A stretch of 64,000 nucleotides of DNA. Origin: Pantoea septica (GTDB taxonomy: Bacteria; Pseudomonadota; Gammaproteobacteria; Enterobacterales; Enterobacteriaceae). The stretch covers positions 1 through 64,000 of the forward strand of contig NZ_MLJJ01000022.1 in NCBI RefSeq assembly GCF_002095575.1, written 5' to 3'. Position numbers and translations under genes: made by a program. This document shows positions 13,074 through 64,000 of the stretch, in pieces (position 1 is the first letter of the stretch; the number at the start of each line of letters is the position of its first letter). A model generated the notes under the pieces. The model was not told the origin of the DNA. It did not search any database and worked only from the letters and a program-made list of their open reading frames with translations.

Positions 13074-13195
13074 GGCTTTCTCCTTAGCAACCTCTGGCTC
13101 ACAGGTGGAGAAGTATAGTCAGGCGCCGGCAGTGAAAGGTTTGAAAGGCATTAATCGTACGGTTCAGGAGAAGCGGGCTAACGCGCAGCGTGGTT

Positions 13196-13217
13196 CAAAA
13201 ACGCTCCCGGCGTTTTG
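13196..13217 (-). terminator. Likely intrinsic terminator downstream of glnQ
   Basis: On the minus strand AAAACGC and GCGTTTT form a 7-bp stem around CGGGA, with the run of five T at its 3' side. It follows directly on the half copy of the structured repeat and lies 93 bases after the glnQ stop. Confidence 0.6.
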
Positions 13218-13224
13218 CCTCTGT

Positions 13225-13262
13225 CGCGGGACGCTTTGCTCTTCGGACCATGCCGCCCGCCT
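13225..13262 (-). repeat. Structured repeat, half copy (A)
   Basis: On the minus strand this reads the 5' arm (GCGGGCGGCATGGTCC) and then the conserved GAAGAGCAAAGCGTCCCGCG core start of the repeat found complete at 29513, 43883 and 63395. The second half is missing and replaced by the terminator hairpin at 13196-13217. It begins about 48 bases after the glnQ stop, in the same orientation as glnQ. Confidence 0.75.
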
Positions 13263-13309: not shown

Positions 13310-14032
13310 TCAGGATACGTGCTGCAGGAACTCGCGCAGGCGATCGCTCGGCGGCTGGGTAATCAGCGCATCGGGATCGCCATCTTCCGCGATGGTGCCT
13401 TTATCGATAAAGATCAAGCGCGACGCGACTTTCTGCGCAAAGCCGACTTCATGGGTGACGATCACCATGGTCATGCCTTCTTCCGCCAGATCCTGCATCA
13501 CCTTCAGCACCTCGTGGCGCAGTTCGGGATCCAGCGCGGAGGTCGGCTCGTCGAACAGCATCAGCTTCGGCTTTACCGCCAGCGCGCGGGCAATAGCGAC
13601 ACGCTGCTGTTGCCCGCCGGAGAGCTCGGAAGGAAAGTGGTGCGCGCGCTCGGCCAGGCCGACCTTCGCCAGCAGCTGGCGCGCCAGCGTATGCGCATCC
13701 TCTTTCTTTGCGCCGCGGACGCGAATCGGGCCAAACGCGACGTTGTCCAGCGCGCTCATCTGCGGGAACAGATGAAACTGCTGGAACACCATGCCCGCTT
13801 CCTGGCGGATCAGACGCTCGTCCACTTTAGGATCGTTGACCTTCAGGCCGTCGACGATCAGATCGCCGCTGCTGATCTCTTCCAGCTTGTTGATACAGCG
13901 CAGCAGCGTCGATTTGCCAGAGCCGGACGGCCCGATAATCACCACCACCTCGCCCTGATTAATCTTCAGGTTGATATCGTGCAGTACCTGGGTGGTGCCA
14001 AAGCTCTTTGAAACGTTCTTAAATTCAATCAC
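13310..14032 (-). CDS. glnQ: Glutamine ABC transporter ATP-binding protein
   Basis: ATPase of the glutamine importer GlnHPQ at the cytoplasmic face. The 240-residue length is as in E. coli. Walker A is GPSGSGKST (34-42), the signature is LSGGQQQR, Walker B is LMLFDEP, and VIVTHEVGF carries the switch histidine. The start is GTG at 14032, overlapping the glnP stop as GTGA; this choice gives the family N terminus (M)[11 protein letters not shown]. No ATG nearby would do so. Confidence 0.96.
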
Positions 14033-27858: not shown

Positions 27859-29451
27859 GTGTTAGTAAGCAGCAATATCACCATGCAGTTTGGCAGCAAG
27901 CCACTGTTCGAAAATATCTCCGTAAAATTTGGCGGCGGTAATCGTTACGGTTTAATCGGTGCAAACGGCAGCGGTAAATCTACCTTTATGAAAATCCTCG
28001 GCGGCGATCTGGCGCCCACCGGCGGTAATGTCTCTTACGATCCCAACGAACGCATCGGCAAGTTAAGGCAGGATCAGTTCGCGTTTGAACAATATAGCGT
28101 GCTGGACACCGTCATCATGGGTCACCATGAATTGTGGGAAGTAAAGCAGGAGCGCGACCGCATATATGCTTTGCCGGAAATGAGCGAAGAGGAAGGCTAT
28201 AAAGTCGCGGACCTTGAAGCGCTTTACGGCGAAATGGATGGCTATAGCGCCGAATCGCGCGCTGGCGAGTTATTACTCGGCGTAGGCATTCCGGTTGAAC
28301 AGCATTATGGCCCGATGAGCGAAATTGCGCCGGGCTGGAAATTACGTGTGCTGCTGGCGCAGGCGTTATTTTCAAATCCCGATATTTTGTTACTGGACGA
28401 ACCGACCAACAACCTGGATATTGATACTATTCGCTGGCTGGAGCAGGTGCTGAACGAGCGTGAAAGCACCATGATCATCATTTCGCACGACCGTCACTTC
28501 CTGAATATGGTTTGTACGCATATGGCGGATCTTGATTACGGCGAATTACGCGTATATCCAGGCAACTATGACGAGTATATGACGGCGGCTACCCAGTCCC
28601 GCGAGCGTTTATTAGCAGACAACGCCAAGAAAAAAGCGCAGATCGCCGAGCTGCAGTCTTTCGTCAGCCGCTTTAGCGCCAACGCCTCTAAATCGCGTCA
28701 GGCGACGTCGCGCGCGAAACAAATTGATAAAATCAAACTGGATGAAGTTAAAGCGTCCAGCCGTCAAAACCCCTTTATTCGTTTTGAACAAGACAAGAAG
28801 CTGTTCCGTAATGCGCTGGAAGTCGAAGCGCTTACCAAAGGTTTTGATAACGGTCCGCTGTTTAAAAATCTCAATCTGCTGCTTGAAGTGGGCGAGAAGC
28901 TGGCGGTTATCGGCGCCAACGGTATTGGTAAATCCACGCTGCTGAAAACGCTGGTGGGCGAACTTAAGCCAGACAGCGGCAGCGTTAAATGGTCGGAAAA
29001 CGCGCGCATCGGCTATTACGCGCAGGATCACGCCACCGACTTCGCCGACGACCTGAGCGTCTTCGACTGGATGAGCCAGTGGAAGCAGGAAGGGGATGAC
29101 GAGCAGGCGGTGCGCAGCATTCTGGGTCGCCTGCTGTTTAGCCACGACGACATCAAAAAACCGGCGAAGGTCCTGTCGGGCGGGGAAAAGGGGCGCATGC
29201 TGTTCGGCAAGCTGATGATGCAGAAACCCAATATCCTGATTATGGACGAACCGACCAACCACCTGGATATGGAGTCGATCGAGTCGCTGAATATGGCGCT
29301 GGAAATGTATGAAGGCACGCTGATTTTCGTTTCGCACGACCGTGAATTCGTCAGCTCGCTGGCGACGCGCGTGCTGGAGATCAAAGAGGACCGCGTGGTG
29401 GACTTTACCGGCACCTACGAAGACTATCTGCGCAGTCAGGGTATTTACTGA
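27859..29451 (+). CDS. ybiT: ABC-F family ATPase YbiT
   Basis: Soluble ABC-F ATPase that acts on ribosomes at the E site; YbiT helps translation of difficult sequences in E. coli. The 530-residue product has exactly the E. coli length. It holds two nucleotide-binding domains with Walker [10 protein letters not shown] and GANGIGKST, Walker [12 protein letters not shown] and [11 protein letters not shown], and the arm/linker [15 protein letters not shown] between them. The start is GTG at 27859, after AAGGT at suitable distance. The nearest ATG, at 27854, is out of frame and hits a stop at once. Confidence 0.95.
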
Positions 29452-29512
29452 TTGCTGTCAGCGAGATGAGCAGGGCCTGTCAGTTATTGCAGACGAATAA
29501 CAATGCCATAAA

Positions 29513-29617
29513 GCAGGTGGCGTGGACCGAAGAGCAAAGCGTCCCGCGCCAGGGAAGGCGCGGGTCGAGCGAGCAGGGATGCGTAAAGCGACTTTGCGAT
29601 CGGTCCACGCCACTTGC
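29513..29617 (+). repeat. Structured repeat, full copy (B)
   Basis: A 105-bp element 61 bases past the ybiT stop. Outer arms GCAGGTGGCGTGGACCGA (29513-29530) and TCGGTCCACGCCACTTGC (29600-29617) pair with one G-T wobble. Inside, CAAAG pairs with CTTTG, and CCCGCGCC (29543-29550) pairs with GGCGCGGG (29557-29564) around AGGGAA. The conserved core begins GAAGAGCAAAGCGTCCCGCG. The same family occurs at 13225, 43883 and 63395. Confidence 0.88.
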
Positions 29618-29655
29618 GTTAGCGCAAAACAGGCAGACAGCTTTATTGAGGGCAT

Positions 29656-29687
29656 AAAGGGGATAGCGCAAGCTATCCCCTTTATTA
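29656..29687 (+). terminator. Hairpin between convergent ybiT and moeB
   Basis: AAAGGGGATAGC and GCTATCCCCTTT form a 12-bp stem around GCAA, followed by ATTATTT on the plus strand. It reaches to the moeB stop codon, so it could serve as a terminator for ybiT and, less well, for moeB on the other strand. Confidence 0.7.
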
Positions 29688-30437
29688 TTTACCACACACT
29701 TCGCAGTGCGCATCCTGCGCCACCTTCACGCTGCGAAACTCCGCGCTCATCGCATCATACATCAGCAGCCGCGACGCGGCGGGCGCGCCAAAGCCCGTCA
29801 ACACTTTAATCGCCTCCATCGCCTGCATGGCGCCAATCACCCCGACCAGCGGCGCCATCACGCCCGCTTCGACGCAGCTTAGCGTCTGCTCGCCGAACAG
29901 GCGGCTAATACAGCGATAGCAGGGTGTGCCCGGCTGCCAGGTAAAGACGCTAATCTGGCCTTCCATGCGAATCGCCGCGCCGGAAACCAGCGGCACGCCA
30001 CGCGACCGACAAAGCCGGTTCAGCTGTTCGCGGATCTGCACGTTGTCGGTACAGTCGAGCACCACCTGATGCCCGGCGATCAGCGCCTCGAGTGCCGCTT
30101 CTTCCAGCGCGCCGTTAACGGTATCAATCTGAACATGTGGGTTGATGGCGGCCAGACTCTCCGCCGCCGAGTCCACCTTGGCGCGGCCGATATCCGCGTC
30201 ATGATGCAGGAGCTGACGCTGCAGGTTCGACAGCGCGACGGTATCGAAGTCGAGCAGGGTCAGCGCGCCGACGCCCGCGCCAGCCAGCCAAGGCGCCGCC
30301 GCGCAGCCTAGTCCGCCAAGGCCGACGATCAGCGCGCGGCTCGCCTTGAGCTTCTCCTGACCGTCGAAGTCGAAGCCGCGCAGCACGATCTGGCGGTTAT
30401 AGCGCAGCATCTCTTCATCGCTGAGTTCAGGCAGCAT
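29685..30437 (-). CDS. moeB: Molybdopterin-synthase adenylyltransferase
   Basis: Activates the C terminus of MoaD by adenylation in molybdenum-cofactor synthesis. The 250-residue E1-like protein has the nucleotide loop GLGGLGCAA (39-47), the R-finger region QRQLLHHDADIG, DCTDNVQIREQLN, and two zinc Cys pairs: CYRC and CEVC (Cys245 and Cys248). The start at 30437 shares one base with the moeA stop (TAATG), so the two are translated as a coupled moeA-moeB operon. The frame upstream is open but inside moeA. Confidence 0.96.
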   Translation of the reverse strand: MLPELSDEEMLRYNRQIVLRGFDFDGQEKLKASRALIVGLGGLGCAAAPWLAGAGVGALTLLDFDTVALSNLQRQLLHHDADIGRAKVDSAAESLAAINPHVQIDTVNGALEEAALEALIAGHQVVLDCTDNVQIREQLNRLCRSRGVPLVSGAAIRMEGQISVFTWQPGTPCYRCISRLFGEQTLSCVEAGVMAPLVGVIGAMQAMEAIKVLTGFGAPAASRLLMYDAMSAEFRSVKVAQDAHCEVCGK

Positions 30438-42629: not shown

Positions 42630-43832
42630 ATGACAACTATTCGCTCTTCACGCCGCTTACGGCATGCCGCCGCCGCCTCGTTACTGCTGTTTATCGCCCC
42701 CGTTGCTTTCGCTGTGGATGCGCCTGCACCCCCTCAGGTCGAGGCCAAAGCGTGGATATTAATGGATTACGCCAGCGGCAAGGTGCTGGCGGAGGGCAAT
42801 GCGGACGACCGACTCGATCCCGCCAGTCTGACTAAGATGATGACCAGCTATGTCGTCGGTCAGGCGCTGAAGTCGGGCAAAATCAAGCGCGACGATATGG
42901 TGACCATCGGCCAGGATGCCTGGGCGACCGGCAATCCCAAACTGAAAGGCTCTTCGCTGATGTTCCTCAAGCCCGGCGACCGCATTCCGGTGTCGGAGCT
43001 GAATAAAGGCATTGTTATTCAGTCAGGCAATGACGCCTGCATCGCGCTGGGGGACTATGTCGCCGGCAGCCAGGACGCCTTTATCGGCCTGATGAACAAC
43101 TACGTTAAGGCGTTCGGGCTGAAAAACACCCACTTTATGACGGTGCACGGGCTGGATGCAGAAGGGCAGTACAGCACGGCGCGCGATATGGCGCTGATTG
43201 GCCAGGCGCTGATCCGCGACGTGCCGGAAGAGTATGCGCTGAATAAAGAGAAAGAGTTTACCTTCAACCATATTCGCCAGATGAACCGCAACCGGCTGCT
43301 CTGGAGCACCAACCTGCAGGTCGACGGCATCAAGACCGGCCACACCTCTGGCGCCGGTAATAACCTGGTGGCCTCCGCGACCGAGAACGGTATGCGGCTG
43401 ATCTCCGTGGTGCTCGGCACCGCCACCGACGCCGCGCGCTTCCGCGAGAGCGAGAAGCTGCTGACCTGGGGTTTCCGCTTTTTTGAAACCGTGACGCCAA
43501 TTAAGGCGGATAAGCCATTTGCCCAGCAGCGCGTCTGGTTCGGCGATCGCAAAGAGGTCAACCTCGGCGTCGAGAAGGATGCCGCGCTGACGCTGCCGAA
43601 AGGGCAGATGAAGAACCTGAAGGCGAGCTATACCCTCACTACGCCGCAGCTTGAAGCGCCGTTAAAGAAAAATCAGGTGGTGGGCACCATCGATTTCCAG
43701 CTTGACGGCAAAACCATCGAACAGCGGCCGCTGGTAGTGATGGAGGAGGTATCGGAGGGCAATTTCTTCAGCCGCATCGTCGATTTCGTGCTGATGCAGT
43801 TCCACTCCCTGTTCGGCAAGTGGTTTAGTTAA
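42630..43832 (+). CDS. dacC: D-alanyl-D-alanine carboxypeptidase (PBP6)
   Basis: Low-molecular-weight penicillin-binding protein that trims the terminal D-Ala from peptidoglycan pentapeptides. The 400-residue precursor has a signal peptide cut after VAFA, the active-site SLTK (Ser66, Lys69), SGN (132-134) and KTG (235-237) motifs, a beta-rich second domain, and a C-terminal amphipathic anchor ([20 protein letters not shown]). The dacC name rests on gene order (next to yliI and ybjG) and length; DacA is the close relative. Confidence 0.93.
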
Positions 43833-43882
43833 GTAATGCCGGCCGTTAGTCTTTTCAGGCAAACGGCTGCGGAGTGCAGGGA

Positions 43883-43987
43883 GCGGGTAGCAGGGCTCGA
43901 AGAGCAAAGCGTCCCGCGGCAGGGATGCCGCGGGCCGAGCGCGCAGGGATGCCTTGAGCGACTTTGCGATCGGGCCCTGCTACTCGC
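43883..43987 (+). repeat. Structured repeat, full copy (C)
   Basis: A 105-bp element 50 bases after the dacC stop, same orientation as dacC. Outer arms GCGGGTAGCAGGGCTCGA (43883-43900) and TCGGGCCCTGCTACTCGC (43970-43987) pair with two wobbles. The inner stem is CCCGCGGC (43913-43920) with GCCGCGGG (43927-43934) around AGGGAT. The core matches copy B except at paired positions. Confidence 0.88.
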
Positions 43988-44070
43988 GACAGCACTATGC
44001 CATCCGCTTTCAGACTAAGGGATTGCCTGTCAGCGCCATCAGCTTTGAGGCCAGCGCGCTGCCAGTTTGC

Positions 44071-44676
44071 TTAATCCTGGATCCAGCCCTTGCGTATCGG
44101 CAGGGCGAACAGCGCGCGGTAGGCGGCGTTAAAAGTCGCCAGCATGCGCGCGCCATATCCCTGCCAGGCGAGATGCGACGCCAGACAGCCGAGCAGCCCC
44201 ACCAGAAATCCGCCCAGCATATCCATCGGCCAGTGCACGCCGAGATAGACGCGCGACCAGGCGATGGCGGTGCCAAGCGCCATCAGGATTACGCCTGACC
44301 AGAGGCGATGCCAGAAGATAAACGCCAGCGCGAAGGTGAAAATAGTGGTGCCGTGATCGCTCGGATAAGAGTCGTCAGGCGCATGGTGCAGAAACTGATA
44401 CCCGAGCCCGATAGCGAACGGCCGCGGATGAGGGAAAAGCTGGCCGACGCACCAGGAGATAGCAAGGGCGTAAATCAAGGCCATGCCGGTTTTCAGCACC
44501 AGCACGCGCTGCAGTTTTACCTGGTCGCGCGGCCCCCACAGCCAGAGCGCGACAATCAGCAGCGGCACGATGGCGATCAGATCTTTGGCGATAAAGGTGG
44601 CCAGCGCCAGCAGCCAGCCGGGCGAATCGGGCGTCGCGTTAATGGATAAAAACAGAGAGTGGTTAAACGCTTCCAT
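44071..44676 (-). CDS. ybjG: Undecaprenyl-diphosphatase, PAP2 family
   Basis: Inner-membrane phosphatase that regenerates undecaprenyl phosphate for cell-wall synthesis. The 201-residue protein has about five membrane segments and the three PAP2 motifs: FPHPRPFAIG region, PSDHGTTIFT and SRVYLGVHWPMDMLGG. The start at 44676 (MEAFNHSLFLSINATPD) has AGGA about ten bases upstream and matches the E. coli protein. A further upstream ATG would add an unrelated basic tail. Confidence 0.95.
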   Translation of the reverse strand: MEAFNHSLFLSINATPDSPGWLLALATFIAKDLIAIVPLLIVALWLWGPRDQVKLQRVLVLKTGMALIYALAISWCVGQLFPHPRPFAIGLGYQFLHHAPDDSYPSDHGTTIFTFALAFIFWHRLWSGVILMALGTAIAWSRVYLGVHWPMDMLGGFLVGLLGCLASHLAWQGYGARMLATFNAAYRALFALPIRKGWIQD

Positions 44677-45002
44677 AGGGTAAGAAATCCTCGTGGTATG
44701 TCTGCGCCCGTTCGCCGCTGCGCACAAAATGTCAATGAAAAGACCTATTCTGGCGACGCCGCGCGTCGGGATATATAGCGCCGGCTCTTAAATGACGCGC
44801 AGGTTTCAGAACGGTTTAAGTTCAGTGACAACGTGCGCATCCCTTATGCGTCTGCCTGCTGCGGCCGGGTAAACCGCAGGCATAAAAAAACCCGTCAGCA
44901 AAAAGCTGGCGGGCTCCACAATTTGGGGATTTCAAAGAAAAGCAGTGGCACTTATTCAGACTCACCCTTAACAAAAAAGTTCTGGACTGAGTCAAAAAAA
45001 TT
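44677..45002. other. ybjG promoter region and ybjL 3' region
   Basis: No gene is seen. An imperfect hairpin TGCCTGCTGCGG / CCGCAGGCA lies at 44851-44881, and the ybjL terminator is at 44884-44913. The segment 44920-45002 is AT-rich and without notable structure. Confidence 0.5.
44884..44913 (-). terminator. Terminator of ybjL
   Basis: On the minus strand GCCCGCCAGC and GCTGACGGG pair around TTTTT, followed by seven T. It lies about 90 bases after the ybjL stop. Confidence 0.85.
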
Positions 45003-61523: not shown

Positions 61524-62335
61524 GGCGGCTGCTGGCCGCGCTGGCGCTGCTGCTGGTGGGCTGCCAGAGCGGACTGGAATCGCGGCAGGGCTACTGGGTC
61601 GATACGCAGCATCCGGCTTACGGCGCCAGGCCGCGCATTAAAGCGATCGTGATTCATTATACCGCCGAGGATTTTCCCTCTTCGCTGGCGACCCTGACCG
61701 ATCGCGACGTCAGCGCCCACTACCTGATTCCCCGCCAGCCGCCGCAGCGCGCAGGAAAGCACATTATCTGGCAGCTGGTGCCGGAGCCGCAGCTCGCATG
61801 GCACGCCGGACCAAGCTTCTGGCGCGACGCGACGCGCCTCAACGACACCTCCATCGGCATCGAGCTGGTGAACCGCGGCTATACGCGCACCCTGACCGGG
61901 CGCGACTGGCAGCCCTTTACCGAGGCGCAGATCGCGGCGCTGACGCTGCTGTTGAAGGATATCGCCCGGCGCTACGCCATCGCGCCGCAGAATATCGTCG
62001 GCCATAGCGATGTCGCGCCGCAGCGCAAGCAGGATCCCGGACCGCTGTTTCCCTGGCATCAGCTGGCGCGGCAGGGGATCGGCGCCTGGCCGGAGGCGTC
62101 GCGCGTGCAGCACTATTTAGCGGGCAGGGCGGCGCAGACGCCGGTGGCGATGGAGACGCTGCTGGCGGCGCTGTCGCGCTACGGCTACGACGCGAGCGGC
62201 GCCGCTACGCCGCGTCAGCAGCAGCGGCTGATCGCGGCGTTCCAGATGCATTTTCGTCCGGCGGACTATCGCGGCTTGCCGGACGCGGAGACGCTGGCGA
62301 TTGCCGAGGCGCTGCTGGAGAGATATGGCGATTAG
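61520..62335 (+). CDS. amiD: N-acetylmuramoyl-L-alanine amidase AmiD
   Basis: Outer-membrane lipoprotein amidase that cleaves the amide bond between MurNAc and L-Ala, also in anhydro-muropeptides. The 271-residue precursor has a lipobox LVGC (Cys15), the Amidase_2 zinc site (His46 in [10 protein letters not shown] and the histidine of [19 protein letters not shown]), and a C-terminal peptidoglycan-binding-like helix bundle. The start is TTG at 61520, inside the ybjQ stop (TTGA); no ATG or GTG would give a signal peptide. Confidence 0.94.
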
Positions 62336-63333
62336 CGCTGCAGGAAGGCTTTCCAGTGCGCCAGCAGCTGCTCCAGCGCATGGCGGTCGACGTCCAGATG
62401 GGTAACGATGCGCGTCACCGGCCCGACGCTTAACAGCACGTCGCGCGCGGCGAACCAGTTTTTCAGCGGCTCGATCTGCTCGGCGGGCACGCGCACGAAC
62501 AGCATATTGGTCTGCTGATCCACCACCTCGACGCCCGCCTGTTGCAGCTGCTGACCGAGCCAGGCGGCGTTGTCGTGATCCTCTTTCAGCCGCGCCACAT
62601 TGTGCCGCAGCGCGTAGAGGCCGGCCGCCGCCAGGATGCCCGCCTGGCGCATGCCGCCGCCCGCCATTTTGCGCCAGCGGCGCGCGCGCTCGATGTAGGC
62701 CTCATCGCCGCACAGCAGCGATCCCACCGGCGTGCCCAATCCTTTCGACAGGCAGATAGTCAACGTGTCGCAGTAGCGCGCGATCGCCTCCAGCGTGACG
62801 TTTTGCGCCACCACCGCGTTAAAGATGCGCGCGCCGTCGATATGCAGCGCCAGCTTGCGCTCGCGGCTAAAGTCCCAGGCGCGGGCGAGATAGTCGAGCG
62901 GCAGCACCTTGCCGTGGTGGGTGTTCTCCAGGCTAAGCAGGCGGGTGCGCGCAAAGTGAATATCGTCCGGTTTGATGGCGGCGGCCACTAAGTCCAGCGG
63001 CAGCGTGCCGTCTTCGGCAGCGAGGATCGGCTGCGGCTGAATGCTGCCCAGCACCGCCGCGCCGCCCGCTTCATATTTATAGTTATGCGCCTGCTGGCCG
63101 ACGATATATTCGTCGCCGCGCTCGCAGTGGCTCAGCAGCGCCACCAGATTAGCCTGGGTGCCGGTCGGAAAGAATAGCGCGGCCGCTTTGCCGCTGAGCC
63201 GCGCGGCTTCCGCCTCCAGCGCATTGACGGTGGGATCGTCGCGATAGACGTCGTCGCCGGTTTCGGCGGCCATCATCGCCTGCAACATCGCGGCGCTCGG
63301 CCGGGTTACGGTATCACTGCGTAAATCGATCAC
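62332..63333 (-). CDS. ltaE: Low-specificity L-threonine aldolase
   Basis: PLP enzyme that splits L-threonine and L-allo-threonine into glycine and acetaldehyde. The 333 residues equal E. coli LtaE, with the PLP lysine at Lys197 in CLSKGLGTPVGS, the HIDGARIFNA aspartate region and DLRSDTVTRPS at the start. The start is GTG at 63333 with AGGAG in place. It overlaps the end of convergent amiD by four bases. The structured repeat and a terminator separate it from poxB upstream. Confidence 0.96.
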   Translation of the reverse strand: MIDLRSDTVTRPSAAMLQAMMAAETGDDVYRDDPTVNALEAEAARLSGKAAALFFPTGTQANLVALLSHCERGDEYIVGQQAHNYKYEAGGAAVLGSIQPQPILAAEDGTLPLDLVAAAIKPDDIHFARTRLLSLENTHHGKVLPLDYLARAWDFSRERKLALHIDGARIFNAVVAQNVTLEAIARYCDTLTICLSKGLGTPVGSLLCGDEAYIERARRWRKMAGGGMRQAGILAAAGLYALRHNVARLKEDHDNAAWLGQQLQQAGVEVVDQQTNMLFVRVPAEQIEPLKNWFAARDVLLSVGPVTRIVTHLDVDRHALEQLLAHWKAFLQR

Positions 63334-63348: not shown

Positions 63349-63375
63349 AAAGAAAAGCGGGCGTAAACGCCCGTT
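63349..63375 (-). terminator. Terminator between poxB and ltaE
   Basis: On the minus strand AACGGGCG and CGCCCGC pair around TTTA, followed by TTTTCTTTTCT. It would end poxB transcripts just before the ltaE start, after the structured repeat. Confidence 0.8.
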
Positions 63376-63394
63376 AAGAATGCCAACAGGTGCC

Positions 63395-63505
63395 GAAGCG
63401 GGTGGCATGGGCCGATCGCAAAGTCGCTCAAGGCATCCATGCGCGCTCGGCCCGCGTCATCCCTGACGCGGGACGCTTTGCTCTTCTGCCCATGCCACCC
63501 GCTTC
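63395..63505 (-). repeat. Structured repeat, full copy (D)
   Basis: A 111-bp element 54 bases past the poxB stop, same orientation as poxB. Outer arms GAAGCGGGTGGCATGGGC (63395-63412) and GCCCATGCCACCCGCTTC (63488-63505) are perfectly complementary. The inner stem CCCGCGTC (63451-63458) pairs with GACGCGGG (63465-63472). The rest follows copies B and C. Confidence 0.9.
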
Positions 63506-63559
63506 TCAGGCTTTGAGCACGCTGAAAGAAACATCAGCGCCCAGCGTCGTCTCCCTCTT

Positions 63560-64000
63560 TTACCGCAGCCAGTTGGTTTTCGCCAGCTCCACCACTTCGT
63601 CGCCGCGACCGTTCAGAATTGCGCGCAGCATATAGAGGCTAAAACCTTTCGCCTGCTCCATCTTGATCTGCGGCGGCATCGCCAGCTCCTCTTTGGCGGT
63701 GATGACGTCCACCAGCACCGGACCGGGATGCGCGAACGCCTGCTCCAGCGCGCCGTTAAGCTCGGACGCCTTCTCCACGCGCAGCCCTTTAATGCCGCAC
63801 GCCTCGGCGATGGCGGCGAAGTCAGGATTATCCAGCTCGGTGCCGTCGGTGAGGTAGCCGCCCGCCTTCATCTCCATGGCGACAAAGCCCAGCACGCTGT
63901 TATTGAAGATCACCAGCTTTACCGGCAGCTTGAGCTGCGCCAGGGTAATAAAGTCGCCCATCAGCATGCTGAAGCCGCCGTCGCCGCACAGCGCCACCAC
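63560..64000 (-). CDS. poxB: Pyruvate dehydrogenase (quinone), C-terminal part
   Basis: Only the last 146 residues lie in the window; the gene continues beyond base 64000. PoxB oxidises pyruvate to acetate and carbon dioxide, passing electrons to ubiquinone at the membrane. Visible are the thiamine-diphosphate motif [33 protein letters not shown], and the C-terminal membrane-binding region ending [16 protein letters not shown] as in E. coli. The start and upstream region are not seen. Confidence 0.96.

Follow-up and report, generated by a model that had tools for sequence, protein, structure and literature searches.

A palindromic sequence recurs four times in a stretch of 64,000 nucleotides from Pantoea septica (contig NZ_MLJJ01000022.1, positions 1 to 64,000, hereafter the window), each time closely behind a gene and in the direction of that gene. 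The initial annotation offered two readings for this arrangement, a structure that acts in the RNA, for instance as a 3'-UTR element, or a mobile palindrome whose insertions are confined to positions behind genes, and the question is which of the two the repeat is. The copies (A to D), their apical loops, the neighbouring hairpins, and the flanking genes are located as follows.

29507..29625, plus strand: copy A, short form, full model match (134.3 bits against a covariance model whose source sequences include copy A; core exact)
29551..29556, plus strand: apical hexaloop 1 of copy A, AGGGAA (A-N-G-G-A-N), read from sequence and fold
29575..29580, plus strand: apical loop 2 of copy A, AGGGAT, read from sequence
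28030..29451, plus strand: ABC-F ATPase (YbiT type), upstream of A (NF011646, 931 bits; start unrefined, aligned from profile position 58)
29656..29683, either strand: bidirectional terminator-like hairpin AAAGGGGATAGC GCAA GCTATCCCCTTT, behind copy A, read from sequence
29685..30437, minus strand: MoeB, convergent neighbour of A (TIGR02355)
43877..43995, plus strand: copy B, short form, full model match (130.4 bits)
43921..43926, plus strand: apical hexaloop 1 of copy B, AGGGAT, read from sequence
43945..43950, plus strand: apical loop 2 of copy B, AGGGAT, read from sequence
42762..43832, plus strand: serine-type D-Ala-D-Ala carboxypeptidase (DacC type), upstream of B (NF007445, 669.8 bits, cut-off 765; start unrefined)
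44071..44676, minus strand: undecaprenyl-diphosphate phosphatase, convergent neighbour of B (NF008813)
63390..63508, minus strand: copy C, short form, full model match (135.2 bits)
63459..63464, minus strand: apical hexaloop 1 of copy C, AGGGAT, read from sequence
63435..63440, minus strand: apical loop 2 of copy C, ATGGAT, read from sequence
63560..64000, minus strand: PoxB, upstream of C, cut by the window end (NF006591, 268.1 bits, profile positions 429-574)
63358..63373, minus strand: intrinsic-terminator-like hairpin directly behind copy C
62332..63333, minus strand: low-specificity threonine aldolase, co-directional, behind C (NF007825)
about 13174..13262, minus strand: copy D, long-form 5' half (5' arm, core start, and first part of the module) without the 3' half, limits set by eye
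13310..14032, minus strand: GlnQ, upstream of D (NF007027)

The core GAAGAGCAAAGCGTCCCGCG was found four times in the window with 0 mismatches each, where 0.02 matches are expected by chance. Copies A, B, and C fold with energies of -74, -85.6, and -79.4 kcal/mol (z-scores of -8.9, -8.4, and -7.3, respectively), and no shuffle among 200 folded as well as any of them, which bears out the claim of four related copies; copy D had no folding excess over its shuffles (z 0.17). The limits first given for A to C were too narrow, as the elements extend past them to the positions listed above. Copy D, initially called a half copy, is indeed partial but represents the 5' half of a longer form, holding the start of a module that is absent from A to C.

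Profile matches for the four upstream genes agree with the names they had been given: an ABC-F ATPase (YbiT type), a D-Ala-D-Ala carboxypeptidase (DacC type), PoxB, and GlnQ. The DacC-type alignment begins at profile position 45, so the translated stretch probably starts late, and the PoxB score lies below its cut-off of 792 because only the end of the gene was translated. The close spacing behind stop codons also held, although the re-measured arms begin about 45-57 rather than 48-62 bases after the stop. Copies A and B sit between convergent genes and copies C and D between co-directional genes, and all four run with the upstream gene. The hairpin behind copy A was not picked up by a consensus terminator scan. 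Two known RNAs also lie on the minus strand of the window: a TwoAYGGAY RNA at 144-220 (RF01731, 51.4 bits, gathering 43), which has two GGA-loop hairpins, is separate from the repeats, and belongs to the Rfam clan of CsrB, and the RybB sRNA at 44882-44946 (61.7 bits against a gathering score of 40), which lies about 0.9 kb away from copy B.

Across the 4.3-Mb genome, the core pattern (at most 2 mismatches) occurred 70 times, 39 times forward and 31 times reverse, while the reversed-pattern control had 0 matches. These 70 copies comprised 40 of a short form and 22 of a long form, together counted as the 62 intact copies, and 8 without a recognisable 3' end. The covariance model, built from 38 of the 40 short copies, produced 80 matches (E ≤ 0.01), of which two or more duplicate a place already matched on the other strand. 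The short-form consensus consists of an arm GCGGGTGGCATGGnCC, followed by GAAGAGCAAAGCGT, the hairpin CCCGCGnC-AGGGAT-GnCGCGGG, a second hairpin with an AGGGAT loop, CTTTGCGATC, and the pairing arm, and a tandem G.A step was invariant in 38 of 38 aligned short copies. In the long form, the first loop is split by an insert of about 80 bases with several hairpins, one of them with an AGGGAT loop. The repeat is a palindrome that folds into one long hairpin. One intergenic region (L004 on G000:C1, about 130020-130389) holds one long copy and one short copy that face opposite ways; the arms of the short copy are unrelated, and its inner stem is altered yet still pairs.

Placement relative to genes was assessed with a simple codon-usage gene finder, and the class counts were unchanged under lenient calling. 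Most copies (53 of 70) lie between convergent genes, while 10 run with both neighbouring genes, 6 run against both, none lies between divergent genes, and 1 is near a contig start. Accordingly, 122 of the 138 gene ends flanking the 69 copies with both neighbours called are 3' ends. Between convergent genes, either orientation counts as being behind a gene in the same direction. Co-directional neighbours are the informative class, and there the 62 intact copies split into 6 sense and 6 antisense (10 to 6 when truncated copies are included). The rule that the element follows its gene's direction therefore describes the four window copies but not the family. Paired changes and a position always behind a gene are thus no proof of an RNA function in cis where most sites are convergent. 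A similar distribution appeared among 71 other Pantoea and Mixta elements, from loci chosen for holding the core, with 54 convergent, 4 with, 6 against, and 7 with one neighbour uncalled. The pattern was less regular for 68 copies from other genera under the same finder, four of which lie between divergent genes.

Among the matches listed, records with the core word came from Pantoea species, Mixta tenebrionis, the Plautia stali Type-B symbiont, and Enterobacteriaceae bacterium UBA2655. Six of the 80 listed loci (L078, L105, L106, L113, L117, and L122) were judged to be chance matches to an 18-base word, with no recognisable 3' half, and were left uncounted. The core pattern (at most 2 mismatches) was present in 38 of 61 genomes of the genus, with the highest number, 73 matches, in this genome; the reversed control gave up to 2 matches in some genomes, so single matches may be due to chance. 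The covariance model reached at least 12 of 149 family genomes at E ≤ 1e-4, and the Rfam model RF02770 at least 15 of 197 order genomes at E ≤ 0.001, this genome included in both, with 24 or 18 candidates scored per genome, so that counts are lower bounds and absences carry little weight. None of 14 control genomes was matched by RF02770. The long form occurs outside the genus as well (G105, L174). Tandem arrangements were seen at two loci, four short-form copies with a 124-base period in Mixta tenebrionis (L098, 5126-5600) and a degenerate array of arm-and-core pieces followed by one intact copy in Pantoea piersonii (L075, 7150-7530).

The element is related to the YPAL/RU-2 repeat of Yersinia. 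The 168-base RU-2 sequence of Y. pestis printed in Delihas 2007 (PMC2759123) aligned with A, B, and C at z-scores of 17, 17, and 26 on the sense strand and at most 2.2 on the antisense strand (100 shuffles each), with 71 identities in 93 alignment columns for copy C. RF02770 (Ysr224) matched the antisense strand of C with 48.1 bits (E 3e-8), B with 45.2, and A with 30.6. Its gathering score of 70 was not reached by the listed Pantoea copies but was passed by L175 (G114), a copy from another genus, with 87.4 bits and by 15 of 18 matches in G268. YPAL/RU-2 is described as a repeat of about 168 bp, found in Yersinia and Erwinia carotovora, that duplicates 3-26 bp of its target at or adjoining dyad symmetry and has filled and empty sites (PMC2229807), and its copy number per Yersinia genome is given as 2 to 144 (PMC2847712). 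Sequence, the RF02770 matches, and the insertion pattern described next together identify the element as YPAL/RU-2.

Flanking direct repeats above the 99th percentile of mismatched flanks were found at 11 of the 62 intact copies, 8 of them exceeding every null value. Read by eye, ten of these 11 flanking repeats form hairpins, about 20-43 bases long and mostly carrying a terminator-type T run, and the flanking terminators match as inverted repeats too. The duplicated target therefore has dyad symmetry and is terminator-like in 10 copies. Since terminator duplication is visible in only about 10 of the 62 intact copies, most insertions are either too old or of another kind.

Three orthologous sites were examined in detail, and both filled and empty states were found. 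Of 30 orthologous loci at the L030 site, 28 lack the element and have a single terminator each in the printed stretch, while this genome and its closest relative carry the element in opposite orientations, with a terminator on either side of it. The L008 site is filled in 4 of 29 other loci (1 in the same orientation and 3 inverted), and 2 more have a diverged element beside a terminator, while some of the remaining loci keep pieces of the element or have different neighbours. These two diverged elements in other Pantoea, one short and one long, stand beside the same terminator (L269 in G384 and L272 in G350), and the spot seems to have been hit repeatedly. At the L015 site, 3 of 29 other loci are filled, 1 in the same orientation and 2 inverted; one locus (L298 in G394) has a different palindromic repeat with CATCCCTG loops at this intergenic site. 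The general comparison of 53 own copies comprised 176 rows, 76 without a recognisable element, 53 inverted, and 47 in the same orientation, a tally that includes repeat fetches of the same place and this genome itself and in which, beyond the three sites, only a minority of the empty rows were read individually.

Orientation has turned over even between close relatives. In the relative G339, where 40 fetched stretches cover 45 of 46 matches, 32 of the 40 loci lie at sites filled here, 14 in the same orientation and 18 inverted (13 and 15 when only full-length elements are counted), with one further row unmatched. Arm identity was compared after the removal of truncated copies, repeated places, and multi-element loci had reduced 100 filled rows to 78 pairs. 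Mean identity was 0.86 for same-orientation pairs (two self-comparisons, L251 and L281, included), 0.67 for inverted pairs, and 0.63 for random own copies. As the inverted mean is close to the random one, most inverted pairs look like separate insertions into the same hot spot. Inversion in situ was rejected as the main cause of inverted sites, as only 5 of 39 inverted pairs have arms of at least 0.88 identity; these near-identical exceptions are five pairs at four sites (L008, L011, L015, and L037). The two forms also interchange at inherited sites: among the 29 same-orientation pairs whose arms match, 8 consist of one long and one short copy.

On this evidence, the copies are very probably a Pantoea/Mixta branch of the YPAL/RU-2 miniature mobile palindromes, which land at terminators behind genes in random orientation. 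The mobile palindrome proposed at the outset is upheld by the 70 copies, the predominance of 3' gene ends, the filled and empty sites, the duplicated terminators, and the YPAL/RU-2 homology. The landing site of the element would be an intrinsic terminator at the 3' end of a gene, in most cases where two genes converge. In some cases the whole terminator is duplicated, giving a terminator-element-terminator arrangement, and orientation is random with respect to the genes. Because it is entire palindromes that insert, and their two arms diverge afterwards under pressure to stay paired on one strand, the arms would differ among copies. The moving enzyme is presumably supplied in trans, and pairing may be needed as a single-strand hairpin for mobility, in RNA, or in both.

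The stems vary by paired changes, as had been claimed from the window copies alone. In the 38 aligned own short copies, 96.7% of cells pair and 137 cells are double changes, neither value being reached by any of 500 shuffles; 25 of 38 pairs change on both sides, which likewise none of the 500 shuffles reached. When the partner was shifted by 1-3 columns, pairing fell to 32-44%. Outer-arm mismatches were G-U 43 times against A-C 21 times in own copies (p 0.008) and 49 against 25 in other copies (p 0.007), or G-U/G-T 92 against A-C 46 pooled (p 1e-4); as copies are non-independent, these p-values serve as guides only. Among own copies, the sense strand folds better than the antisense strand in 37 of the 40 short ones and 19 of the 22 long ones, which is largely the same signal as the excess of G-U over A-C. 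Pairing is thus maintained, preferentially on one strand, in a way that does not tell RNA and single-stranded DNA apart. The covariation is real beyond shuffles, yet a DNA hairpin would produce it too. A role in RNA or as a single strand may still be suggested by the one-strand features, namely the G-U excess, the A-N-G-G-A-N loops, and the invariant tandem G.A step.

One account of these features, compatible with mobility, is that the RNA of the element is a candidate CsrA/RsmA-binding module, a reading that we hold tentatively and that falls short of probable. Two hairpins with A-N-G-G-A-N hexaloops are present in the short form; the long form interrupts the first of them and brings another, again giving two. 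As in CsrB, read-through transcripts would carry paired CsrA sites, which would stabilise the 3' end or titrate CsrA. In 86 short copies (40 own and 46 other, including a locus with four copies in tandem and a few copies with deletions), the fixed positions of the site-1 loop read A in 85, G in 83, G in 82, and A in 82, while position 2 was G64/A12/T10 and position 6 was T46/A18/G13/C9 (Fisher p 3e-22, copies non-independent). The extra loop of the long form showed the same profile in 45 copies, with 2 of 47 unparsed. Loop 2 was parsed in 127 of 133 copies by its resemblance to A-N-G-G-A-N (6 excluded, 9 of the 127 apparently mis-parsed) and is no independent test. RNAfold often closes an A-U pair inside the hexaloop, so minimum-free-energy loop counts understate the motif and stem-flanked hexaloops were used instead. 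A GNRA tetraloop reading, A-[GGGA]-U, was rejected, as the first loop G varies and the next G is fixed.

Of the own copies, 33 of the 40 short ones and 19 of the 22 long ones have two A-N-G-G-A-N loops (stem of at least 2), and the other 10 have one. In other Pantoea and Mixta, all 43 short copies and 23 of the 25 long ones have at least one such loop, as do 64 of the 68 copies from other genera, while the single copy of G035 and three more copies from other genera have none, which counts against the CsrA reading. No such loops were found on the antisense strand, where stems of at least 4 were required. Where copies are inherited in the same orientation, 22 loop changes were counted, 17 of them at the two N positions, with some copies entered twice. 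GGA thus stands at the hairpin apex within an A-N-G-G-A-N hexaloop, as in CsrA-binding RNAs. The CsrA SELEX consensus is given as RUACARGGAUGU, mostly with six-base loops closed by AC/GU (PMC7652899), beside which the copy L183 of another genus reads GTACAGGGATGT. At 8 pairs, mostly G-C, the first stem exceeds the length of most of the SELEX hairpins described there (at most 4 pairs; PMC7652899), which argues against this reading. This genome has one csrA and one CsrB above cut-offs. Against a role in cis, orientation is random and six intact copies placed antisense still keep their loops; several copies stand behind a terminator, so read-through would be required, and the Rfam model of the Yersinia homologue describes the opposite strand. 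No report tying CsrA to YPAL or similar repeats was found among the listed open-licence papers, and the passages cited here name no molecular partner of YPAL. Judged from sequence, the predicted loops would likely be bound by CsrA in vitro. It is a further step, and a rather doubtful one, to regard the YPAL superfamily as a dispersed mobile set of candidate CsrA-binding hairpins, with 62 intact copies carrying one or two A-N-G-G-A-N loops each, mostly between convergent genes.

Possible too, though again on the unlikely side, is that strand-specific pairing and loops serve mobility itself, with the sense strand recognised as a hairpin of single-stranded DNA (or RNA) and no role in mRNA. DNA hairpins tolerate G-T and sheared G.A, and the 92 to 46 excess of G-U/G-T over A-C, the better folding of the sense strand, and the invariant tandem G.A step suit this account, as does a random orientation relative to genes, expected if genes are irrelevant. 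The loop profile, however, fits CsrA better than any transposase signal known to us, and a transcription-linked C-to-T strand bias could also yield G-T over A-C. In the passages of the cited literature, no hairpin-recognising enzyme is tied to YPAL.

Template switching at the palindrome, by which one arm corrects the other, is an improbable source of the paired changes in place of selection on a folded strand. The elements are long DNA palindromes, and the terminators flanking them are inverted-repeat matches as well, as this mechanism would have it. Among 29 same-orientation orthologous pairs with matching arms from two species, however, only 15 of 94 changed pair positions were paired double changes and 67 were one-sided, so the arms drift mainly by single changes, and the asymmetry of G-U over A-C is not expected from template switching. 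A 3'-UTR element that acts in cis and always follows the direction of its upstream gene has very little left in its favour, as the strong covariation and the gene orientation of 4 of 4 window copies are set against 6 sense and 6 antisense intact co-directional copies here, 4 to 6 in other Pantoea and Mixta, and 18 of 32 shared sites inverted in G339.

The initial interpretation is thus partly supported: its mobile-palindrome reading stands, and its RNA reading with fixed orientation does not. The element is best read as mobile, with CsrA binding as a candidate role. If the CsrA reading were true, a mobile repeat would distribute sites for a global post-transcriptional regulator, pooled read-through transcripts could buffer free CsrA, and orientation turnover would mean that the convergent mRNA carrying the CsrA sites can switch in evolution. 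If it were false, the strand-specific pairing would point to a single-strand intermediate in the movement of the element. YPAL was described nearly twenty years ago, and the loop profile now yields a precise CsrA hypothesis, for which the filled, empty, and inverted sites are natural allele sets.

As far as sequence comparison goes, the repeat is the Pantoea branch of the YPAL/RU-2 mobile palindromes and thus of a known kind, while the Pantoea/Mixta branch itself, its interchanging long and short forms, the orientation turnover, and A-N-G-G-A-N loops that drift mainly at N are apparently new. CsrB and the TwoAYGGAY RNAs (Rfam clan CL00106) likewise present GGA in apical hairpin loops, and to our knowledge neither is known as a mobile repeat. 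De Gregorio reportedly found in 2006 that YPAL inserts close behind stop codons and overlaps terminators, with higher transcript levels. In Yersinia, YPAL has been suggested to affect the level or stability of the upstream transcript (PMC2229807). The E. coli RrA/RrB/RrF sRNAs are described as short RNAs between two terminators, reached by read-through and interacting with CsrA in vitro (PMC8144298); they are likened here by description, and unlike the repeat they are parts of rRNA operons. ERIC/RU-1 is another enterobacterial intergenic mobile palindrome, named beside YPAL (PMC2229807), and differs by description in its 127 bp, TA ends, and terminal inverted repeats (PMC2229807, PMC2759123). 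RF02770, Ysr224 or Yersinia sRNA 224, is the same element on the opposite strand, and the strand modelled in Rfam lacks the GGA loops. The Pantoea/Mixta branch resembles YPAL/RU-2 in its core sequence and palindromic hairpin, in duplicating a target with dyad symmetry when it inserts, and in having both filled and empty sites. It differs in its arms, the CCCGCG stem, the multi-hairpin module of about 80 bases in the long form, the duplication of whole terminators of up to about 43 bases (3-26 bp in YPAL), and the turnover of orientation at shared sites.
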